Of a stretch of 64,000 bases of DNA, positions 10,706 to 50,388 are shown piece after piece. A program made the position numbers and the translations under genes. Below the pieces are notes generated by a model. That model made no database searches, was not told the DNA's origin, and saw nothing but the letters and a program-made list of their open reading frames with translations. Source of the DNA: Bradyrhizobium canariense (GTDB taxonomy: Bacteria; Pseudomonadota; Alphaproteobacteria; Rhizobiales; Xanthobacteraceae); assembly GCF_900105125.1 (NCBI RefSeq), contig NZ_LT629750.1, forward strand, positions 5,979,001 through 6,043,000, read 5' to 3'. The stretch's first letter is position 1, and each line of letters begins with the position of its first letter.

Positions 10706-10802
10706 CGTCATTCCGGGGCGCGCGTCAGCGCGAACCCGGAATCTCGCACCAATCATCTCTGGATTCCGGGTTCGCTCGCGGGGCGAGCGCCCCGGAATGA
10801 CG
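10706..10802. repeat. REPIN-like paired palindrome between TRAP P and Q genes
   Basis: Two inverted hairpin units: CGTCATTCCGGGGCG...CGAACCCGGAATC, a spacer, then GGATTCCGGGTTCG...CGCCCCGGAATGACG. It begins 6 bp after the binding-protein stop codon, so it may stabilise the upstream message and allow more binding protein than membrane subunits. Confidence 0.9.
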
Positions 10803-23343: not shown

Positions 23344-23458
23344 CGTCATTCCGGGGCGATGCAAAGCATCGAACCCGGAATCCAGAAGTTGCGGCGTGAG
23401 ATTCTCCGATGTGCAATCGCACATCGTAGTTCGCGCTGAAGCGCGCCCCGGAATGACA
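23344..23458. repeat. REPIN-like element with extra palindrome, after marR
   Basis: Opens CGTCATTCCGGGGCGATG and closes GCGCCCCGGAATGACA. It contains the third hairpin CGATGTGCAA-TCGCACATCG, one base different from the one in the copy at 3711-3811. Confidence 0.88.
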
Positions 23459-38673: not shown

Positions 38674-38772
38674 CGTCATTCCGGGGCGTGCGGAGCACGA
38701 GCCCGGAATCCATAACCACCATCGTGAGTATGGATTCCGGGCCTGCGCCAAGAGGCGCATCCCGGAATGACG
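38674..38772. repeat. REPIN-like element between pimC and pimD, apparent deletion derivative of the GIY-YIG element
   Basis: CGTCATTCCGGGGCG...CGAGCCCGGAATCCATA, a 14-nt spacer (ACCACCATCGTGAG), then TATGGATTCCGGGC...TCCCGGAATGACG. Read on the other strand the spacer is CTCACGATG plus GTGGT. These match the 9 nt left (one mismatch) and 5 nt right that border the gene inside the element at 42832-43231. Confidence 0.9.
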
Positions 38773-39954: not shown

Positions 39955-40077
39955 CGTCATTCCGGGCGCTGACTTAGTCCCGTCATTCCGGGGCGATGCG
40001 AAAGCATCGAACCCGGAATCTCGAGCTTATAACTTCTAGATTCCGGGTCTGCGCCAAGAGGCGCATCCCGGAATGAC
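39955..40077. repeat. REPIN-like element plus a truncated unit after pimD
   Basis: A truncated CGTCATTCCGGGCG unit at 39955-39978 is followed by a complete copy at 39981-40077 (CGTCATTCCGGGGCG...GAACCCGGAATC, spacer, TAGATTCCGGGTC...TCCCGGAATGAC). Confidence 0.88.
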
Positions 40078-42815: not shown

Positions 42816-42831
42816 GCTACTCACCTATTGT

Positions 42832-43231
42832 CGTCATTCCGGGGCGACGTGAAGCGTCGAGCCCGGAATCCATACTCCCGATGTCAATTTGAGATACCGG
42901 GATACAGATCGACCCACTCCGGATTTTGCTCCTCAATCAAACGAATTTTCCAGTCGCGCCGCCATTTCTTCAATTCCTTTTCTCGGGCAATAGCGGTTGC
43001 AATGTCGTCGTAGATCTCAAACCACACCAGCTTGTCGACGCCATATTTTGTCGTAAAGCCGCCGATCGCCTTGCTGCGGTGTTCGTAGCCGCGACGCACG
43101 ATATCGCTTGTCACACCGAGATAGAGTGTGCCGTGTTTTCTGCTCGCAAGGAGATAGACGTAATATGACATCGCGAGTGCGGTGGTTATGGATTCCGGGC
43201 TCGCTCGCGTTGCTCGCGCCCCGGAATGACG
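42832..43231. mobile_element. GIY-YIG-carrying paired-palindrome element
   Basis: Outer ends CGTCATTCCGGGGCG (42832-42846) and CGCCCCGGAATGACG (43217-43231) are perfect 15-bp inverted repeats. Inner arms GAGCCCGGAATCCATA (42859-42874) and TATGGATTCCGGGCTC (43187-43202) are perfect 16-bp inverted repeats. Each end is thus a complete REP-like hairpin unit, and the 312-bp interior is almost exactly one gene. This is the design of REP-flanked RAYT loci, with a GIY-YIG protein in the RAYT place. That it is mobile is inferred. Confidence 0.65.
42884..43171 (-). CDS. GIY-YIG single-domain nuclease inside a palindromic repeat
   Basis: A 95-residue protein of the stand-alone GIY-YIG (UPF0213/YhbQ-like) group. 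The GIY part is YYVYLL (residues 3-8), the YIG part TLYLGVT (15-21), the catalytic arginine Arg26 in SDIVRR, then EHR (30-32). The catalytic glutamate Glu64 lies in AREKELKKWRR, and Asn83 in NPEW. All expected catalytic residues are present, so it is probably active on DNA with a metal ion. The start codon is 15 nt from the right-hand repeat and the stop 9 nt from the left-hand one. No ribosome site is obvious, so the repeat is its 5' leader. Confidence 0.88.
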   Translation of the reverse strand: MSYYVYLLASRKHGTLYLGVTSDIVRRGYEHRSKAIGGFTTKYGVDKLVWFEIYDDIATAIAREKELKKWRRDWKIRLIEEQNPEWVDLYPGISN

Positions 43232-43411
43232 AACAAATAATCCCCCTTTTCCTCTTCGCATTCAACAAAGAGCTGCGGTTGTTGGCGCGAGTTCTGATTC
43301 AGTGATTCGGCTGTCCAGCCCTGTTTCGAAAATTTCTTCGCTTTTCTGCCGAGGCAAATCAGTTGCCTATCGCTGCCGTTCTGTCCCGAACGAGGGGCGT
43401 ATCGCGATCGT
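43232..43411. other. Short gap with no feature seen
   Basis: Between the GIY-YIG element and the structured repeat I see no gene, hairpin or known site. Confidence 0.4.
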
Positions 43412-50349: not shown

Positions 50350-50388
50350 CGTCATTCCGGGGCGCGCGTTAGCGCGAACCCGGAATGA
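50350..50388. repeat. Single REP-like unit
   Basis: CGTCATTCCGGGGCGCGCGT...CGCGAACCCGGAATGA. Only one of the two inverted units of the REPIN family is present, placed between the convergent LLM and pheA genes. Confidence 0.85.

Follow-up and report, generated by a model that had tools for sequence, protein, structure and literature searches.

A GIY-YIG nuclease gene between inverted CGTC-tagged REPs as a candidate analogue of the REPtron

A gene for a predicted GIY-YIG nuclease of 95 residues lies between two inverted CGTC-tagged REPs in Bradyrhizobium canariense, and its homologs, both in relatives and across phyla, have repeats of this class at their borders much more often than chance would allow. 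We consider it fairly probable that such a REP-gene-REP arrangement represents a mobile unit driven by its nuclease, with the CGTC REPINs as its short derivatives, that is, an analogue of the REPtron built around an unrelated enzyme. The locus was found in a stretch of 64,000 nucleotides (hereafter, the window), in which the following features were assigned.

10707 to 10801, no strand: gene-less REP pair (REPIN) with outward tags (motif scan, fold)
23345 to 23457, no strand: gene-less REP pair (REPIN) with outward tags (motif scan, fold)
38675 to 38771, no strand: gene-less REPIN whose spacer matches leader plus trailer (CCATAACCAC-CATCGTGAGTATGG, trailer one base off)
39982 to 40077, no strand: gene-less REP pair (REPIN) with outward tags (motif scan, fold)
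42831 to 42874, plus strand: left CGTC-tagged REP unit with outward tag and gene-facing CCA tail, its fold being an 8-bp stem that encloses an inner hairpin
42870 to 42883, minus strand: trailer CATCGGGAGTATGG, directly after the stop codon, recurring in some short REPINs
42884 to 43171, minus strand: predicted GIY-YIG nuclease gene, 95 aa plus stop (open reading frame, Pfam match, alignment A1)
43182 to 43191, minus strand: leader CCATAACCAC, 5' of the start codon, overlapping the tail of the right REP and recurring in some short REPINs
43187 to 43232, minus strand: right CGTC-tagged REP unit, inverted relative to the left one (sequence, arm pairing, fold)
50351 to 50364, plus strand: single REP of the same family as the REPs around the gene (motif scan)

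The window locus and its repeat family

The gene is read from the minus strand, with codons running from 43171 to 42887 and a stop codon at 42884-42886. Its open frame (42884-43261) extends through the right REP to 125 aa, and the homologs point to 43171 as the probable start; many of the 120 database homologs listed are 107-163 aa long, perhaps owing to start sites over-extended through a REP. The protein matches Pfam PF01541 (E 4.7e-15; 56.1 bits, above the gathering cut-off of 22.6), and V5, Y6, Y17, G19, T21, R27, H31, E64, and N83 are invariant across 26 aligned sequences (alignment A1), among them the Tyr, Tyr, Arg, His, Glu, and Asn that we take to be the conserved GIY-YIG motif residues. 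Together with the paired arms described below, this confirmed the two central statements of the initial annotation, namely that inverted REP-like units enclose a 95-residue GIY-YIG gene and that the expected motif residues are present. A PADLOC defence-system search with the protein gave no match and NCBIfam assigned no family to it; in the NCBIfam comparison, TIGR01453 matched the related gene L002 alone, under its cut-off.

Each REP unit reads TCGTC-ATTCCGGG...CCCGGAAT-CCA, with the TCGTC tag outside, an 8-bp stem, an inner hairpin, and a CCA tail facing the gene. The outer arms (42831-42846 and 43217-43232) pair over 16 bp and the inner arms (42858-42874 and 43187-43203) over 17 bp, both with 100 % complementarity; the perfect pairing reported earlier thus stands, whereas the lengths given for it (15 and 16 bp) were one base short each. 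The gaps between gene and REPs, 9 nt (42875-42883) and 15 nt (43172-43186), are as had been stated. Across the genome of 7.84 Mb, GTCATTCCGGGGCG is present in 57 + 58 = 115 copies, while the pattern read backward gives none. The claim that gene-less copies of the paired palindrome lie elsewhere in the window was likewise borne out by four REP pairs with outward tags, in two of which one partner mismatches at 2 of 14 positions. Among REP neighbours at most 500 bp apart in the window, the order +/- occurs five times (the gene-bearing pair counted), +/+ once, and -/+ never.

CGTC-tagged palindromes were described from five phyla in a 2013 survey by Di Nocera et al., which characterizes them by an unpaired CGTC or TGTC tag, a stem of 8-9 bp starting with AT, a CCA tail, and mainly head-to-head dimers, and includes Neisseria dRS3 and Rickettsia RPE-4/RPE-6 in the superfamily (PMC3733652). 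The window REPs share the CGTC tag, 8-bp stem, CCA tail, head-to-head dimers, and high copy number; their loop, that is, the inner hairpin, is longer than the usual 4-5 bp, and deviant loops are mentioned in the same text for Bradyrhizobium CGTC-1 (PMC3733652). According to the survey, the repeats "apparently lack a dedicated transposase", and a few fortuitous associations aside, no transposase gene was found flanked by CGTC REPs (PMC3733652), whereas here a GIY-YIG gene is associated with them.

Five GIY-YIG matches were found in the window genome. The window gene and L002 (66 % identical) are both bordered by type-A REPs and L004 (50 % identical to the window gene) by a type-G REP, CGTCATTGCGAGG...GAAGCAATCC, so that each of these three related genes has its own REP type on both sides. 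L001 encodes a different small GIY-YIG protein and has no flanking inverted repeat, and the fifth match, in a 693-codon frame, would by its size be UvrC. Only one weak Y1_Tnp/RAYT-like match (E 1.4e-4) was detected, L006 at 3794590-3794916; the motif GTCATTCC is absent from its 3.3-kb locus, and by eye the gene lies between GTAG-tagged palindromes (GTAGGGTGGGCAAAG...). A RAYT as driver of the CGTC repeat was set aside, since this sole candidate has palindromes of the GTAG type and no CGTC motif. A putative HUH enzyme with GTAG REPs and a GIY-YIG gene with CGTC REPs offer a built-in comparison within the same genome.

Association in relatives and across phyla

Sixty genomes were searched, the window genome included, and 52 of them hold a GIY-YIG match, often several. 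Outside the window genome, 102 matches had E values up to 7.5e-24, 96 of which were fetched with flanks of up to 1 kb; left out were a fragment in G019, three genes with an internal stop (G043, G034, and G012), and two that share a short contig of G015. Together with the three genes of the window genome, this gave 99 homologs, for each of which the best inverted repeat between the 150 bp upstream and the 150 bp downstream was compared with 494 sham windows. Seventy-seven homologs lay above the 99th percentile of the shams and 22 failed this threshold. The sham windows are mostly coding DNA, and cold-shock genes, as small solitary genes, represent the fairer control: none of 28 exceeds this threshold (two further loci of the 30 were not orientable). 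In a formal test for GTC-tagged hairpins, 60 of the 99 homologs carry them on both sides and 73 on at least one, compared to 0 and 10 of the 28 cold-shock genes, respectively. The repeats vary by clade and, among the loci read, are mostly of the GTCAT/GTCGT...CCA kind.

Five GIY-YIG genes of other subfamilies, L001 and the weaker matches L133-L136, had been chosen as negative controls, three of which (L134, L135, and L136) proved positive for flanking inverted repeats. These three, members of a distant subfamily with 33-36 % identity of which four genes were fetched, carry tagged palindromes (CGTCATCCTGAGG...CCTCGAAGGATG), and L133 is without them; we regard the palindromes of this subfamily as a lead.

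When the REPs were typed, 64 of the 99 genes had the same type on both sides, 24 a type on one side, and 11 none; seven of the one-sided genes combine type C with the related C2 on the other side, and types B and I face each other across the genes L055, L056, and L072. Grouping by flanking DNA resulted in 43 locus groups, 33 of them typed (one-sided types counted, C and C2 merged). On the protein tree of these groups, the types require 18 changes as compared to a shuffled mean of 30.1, with none of 200 shuffles as low, in a test that treats "none" as a group and uses a quick tree with 20 of its 40 inner branches open. Each of the types A, G, and H occupies one side of a branch, and D, K, and J are partly clustered. 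Repeat type thus follows gene clade, albeit imperfectly, as types B, C, and F show no clustering among the 43 groups.

The association reaches well beyond these genomes. Named GTDB contigs were scanned with alignment A2, and the best 80 of at least 590 confirmed stretches were kept, with 78 of them usable; the 80 derive from Proteobacteria and other phyla, including candidate phyla, Chloroflexi, Planctomycetes, Nitrospirae, and Bacteroidota. Fifty-three of the 78 exceed the 99th percentile of 468 shams (25 lie below), and a score of at least 15 is reached by 41 homologs and no sham. GTC-tagged hairpins stand on both sides of 47 of the 78 homologs versus 1 of 448 shams, and on at least one side of 69 versus 32 of 448. 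Homologs elsewhere are therefore flanked by the same repeat class far above chance (77 of 99 and 47 of 78, against shams), in line with the initial annotation. Among 15 hand-picked genomes of the GTDB-wide set, the commonest-type pattern occurs in 12, five of which have 24-146 copies and seven 1-9, and is absent from three, with a backward control of 0. A plasmid collection yielded 33 records with a match, and all eight inspected by eye, those of Azospirillum and Neisseria gonorrhoeae among them, have palindromes on both sides. The repeats around the Neisseria gonorrhoeae homolog resemble dRS3 by eye, which the 2013 survey equates with CGTC-1 (PMC3733652). On a plasmid of Azospirillum lipoferum (L218), the unit has sufB on one side and sufC on the other, inside the suf operon, and a 67 %-identical homolog on an IMG/VR contig filed as viral (L197) has REP-like palindromes on both sides by eye.

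Unit borders and site histories

One clear case, in genome G030, reveals where the unit ends. Two copies at distant places, L113 and L117, are 88 % identical over 458 bp; the homology runs from the GTCGTCCC tag on the leftmost REP to the end of the right REP, and the flanks are unrelated. Terminal inverted repeats bounding a unit, a classical trait of IS elements and MITEs, are thus displayed here, and the pair favours movement of the unit as a whole.

The spacer of the REPIN at 38675-38771 corresponds to the leader of the window gene joined directly to its trailer, with one base different, and 36 of 60 genus genomes contain leader-trailer spacers of this kind, with 1-14 copies per genome and none for the pattern read backward; some of these spacers are identical to leader plus trailer. 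Their length is 24 or 25 nt among the matches listed, the search permitting 22-42. Among the type-A genes read, the window gene alone has the trailer found in the REPINs, the others having the leader alone or neither. A leader-trailer REPIN may be either a unit without its gene or the kind of REPIN that the gene entered.

We propose that the nuclease recognizes and nicks or cuts its own REP family, in the form of either a folded hairpin or a duplex. Repair or replication by the host would then place copies of the unit, or of the short pair lacking the gene, elsewhere in the genome; alternatively, the gene might be copied into an existing REP pair. The short CGTC REPINs, comprising two ends and no gene, would be non-autonomous derivatives on which the nuclease could act in trans.

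Empty and filled pairs were sought at three sites, glpK-metH, dnaN-recF, and lepB-groEL (neighbour-gene names that we presume from the sequences). No fresh insertion was caught at the sites compared, and no target-site duplication was seen by eye, the sole REP-free site (L378) being too diverged for its junction to be read. Downstream of lepB, 30 loci from the 60 genomes were compared, of which the closest 22 were treated as orthologous sites and the other eight as outgroup, with states assigned by eye. Nine of the 22 contain a GIY-YIG gene with REPs, five a single symmetric REP, two a REP fragment, one a long REPIN, and three another palindrome (two of these also with a REP fragment); one is clean and empty (L378) and one unrelated. 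This third palindrome, TAGCCCGGATGGAGCG..., occupies the lepB-side spot in L367, L370, and L381, twice beside a cut-off type-A REP. In the lepB DNA tree, the gene-bearing state is basal (L386, L387, and L384) and the other states are scattered, which makes repeated decay at this site likely; repeated gain is possible.

L386 and L387 are sisters on this tree, with lepB-like genes 93.8 % identical over 417 bp. Between like REPs, they contain different gene lineages in opposite orientation (by eye), with an internal stop in L387 and a damaged 5' part in L386. Over 410 bp, the L386 element shares 86 % identity with its counterpart at L366; the lepB genes of these two are only 76 % identical, and gene and lepB distances correlate weakly overall (Mantel r 0.28, a value reached in 177 of 5000 permutations). 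At dnaN-recF, of 52 loci (50 drawn plus two known carriers added), 11 carry a GIY-YIG gene and 22 a DUF559 gene, 17 lack both, and two are unreadable; one of the 17, L181, has a GIY-YIG unit with most of its gene deleted, between the same genes. Among 30 glpK loci fetched, metH lies beside glpK only at the window locus and L145, and the glpK-metH spacer of G071 contains, at a position of its own, another GIY-YIG gene (53 %) set in a CGTC REP of a different kind.

GIY-YIG homing endonucleases are known (I-TevI type, Seg), and the window protein resembles them in its predicted fold and in possibly being copied into a cognate site. That sister lepB sites contain different genes in opposite orientation favours a homing-like copying of genes between REP arms. 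In its strict form, homing would mean that a free-standing endonuclease targets the REPIN spacer, that the break is repaired via the REP arms, and that the REPs are spread otherwise; a palindromic target would take a gene in either orientation, as the sister sites suggest, and the closeness of the L386 element to that of the distant L366 would be explained. As the sole process, however, we judge homing rather unlikely: the G030 unit, REPs included, is present at two places with unrelated flanks, and the spread of the REPs would be left without a cause, the 2013 survey knowing of no transposase flanked by CGTC REPs beyond its fortuitous few (PMC3733652). Homing-like gene copying and movement of whole units are compatible, and both may be true for the nuclease-driven unit that we favour. 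Unlike the homing endonucleases that we are aware of, the window protein is a stand-alone domain of about 95 aa with neither a visible intron nor a separate DNA-binding domain, and its candidate site is a high-copy palindrome.

Known systems, selection, and abundance

With the REP/RAYT system as described in two studies, there are two likenesses, a single gene between inverted REPs accompanied by many gene-less REP pairs and a distribution of REP types by enzyme subclass (PMC6006769, PMC3733652). The differences are that the enzyme belongs to the GIY-YIG family and not to the HUH tyrosine transposases, and that the REP tag is CGTC and not GTAG. The window locus therefore resembles a REPtron without being one: its gene lies between inverted REPs, but HUH enzyme and GTAG tag are missing. 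RAYTs are furthermore described as single-copy and vertically inherited (PMC8049555), whereas the GIY-YIG genes described here are multi-copy. The repeat-propagating system analogous to REP/RAYT that the initial annotation had envisaged is partly supported, in its anatomy and association, with the spreading of the repeat by the nuclease being the step that we infer.

More far-reaching, and in our estimate evenly balanced between true and false, is the idea that the GIY-YIG family is the missing dedicated enzyme of the whole CGTC-REP superfamily in many phyla, Neisseria dRS3 and Rickettsia RPE-4/6 included. The propagation of REPINs would then have been invented independently a second time, by means of a small nuclease whose fold is unrelated to that of RAYT transposases, and populations of REPIN-like repeats would have two or more origins involving unrelated nucleases. 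A 95-residue one-domain enzyme tied to its own repeats would also answer the question of the missing transposase posed in the 2013 survey (PMC3733652). Such a nuclease-REP pairing would moreover offer a minimal cut-and-copy system that is directly testable with oligonucleotides.

The protein is, judged from its coding sequences, under purifying selection: for the nine lepB-site genes (one with a stop, one partial), dN/dS has a median of 0.065 and a maximum of 0.11, with 29 of 36 pairs giving values. This would suit a nuclease that has been domesticated by the host and employs the REPs either to regulate itself or as sites of repair, with RAYTs or other transposases spreading the repeats, and one weak Y1_Tnp/RAYT-like match is indeed present in the genome. 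A domesticated nuclease, which had been suggested from the outset, is nonetheless improbable and fits less well because the gene is patchy and multi-copy, and one site seems to have lost it repeatedly and also shows its replacement; the RAYT-like gene L006, too, lies by eye between palindromes of the GTAG type, and its locus lacks GTCATTCC.

Repeat abundance, whose relation to the gene the initial annotation had made a condition, gives a weak result. Repeat A is present in all 36 same-genus genomes and in none of the 24 others. Its median copy number is 144 in the 15 genomes with a type-A gene (listed by hand, in agreement with the REP-type labels) and 66 in the 21 without, among which G019 with its type-A-like fragment was counted; the two sets overlap widely, the genomes without a type-A gene having 11-192 copies, and the one-sided p of 0.0035 is uncorrected for kinship among non-independent genomes. 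The expected relation between abundance and gene is thus seen as a higher count, and its weight is small because the repeat is found in 36 of 36 genomes of the genus, gene or not, and the genomes are not independent. That a small gene merely came to lie in the intergenic space of a REP-rich genome, conceivable given the abundance of REPs and the 10 of 28 cold-shock genes with a tagged hairpin on at least one side, was rejected as highly improbable by means of the sham windows and the cold-shock control, none of whose 28 genes is bordered on both sides, and is also at odds with the clustering of repeat types and the presence across phyla.

Among the matches listed from an open-access collection, none connects GIY-YIG genes to REPs, REPINs, or CGTC repeats; this covers passages of PMC9465073, PMC5896051, PMC8049555, and PMC6006769, with most subscription journals and bioRxiv outside the scope. 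Two solved structures matched by sequence, the UPF0213 GIY-YIG proteins with PDB entries 1zg2 and 1ywl, are annotated as hypothetical.

Small endonuclease genes of the DUF559/Vsr-like kind were observed in the dnaN-recF spacer (L171, L175, L177, L183, L184, L189-L191, L194, and L196) and in the window genome (L217), and those read are bordered by another palindrome, CCCTCTCCCCTTGTGGGAGAGGG. In a test of the DUF559 family, 6 of 23 usable genes (30 loci) lay above the 99th percentile, with 4 of 320 shams reaching 15; this result is weak, and a second nuclease-palindrome pairing is possible as a lead only.
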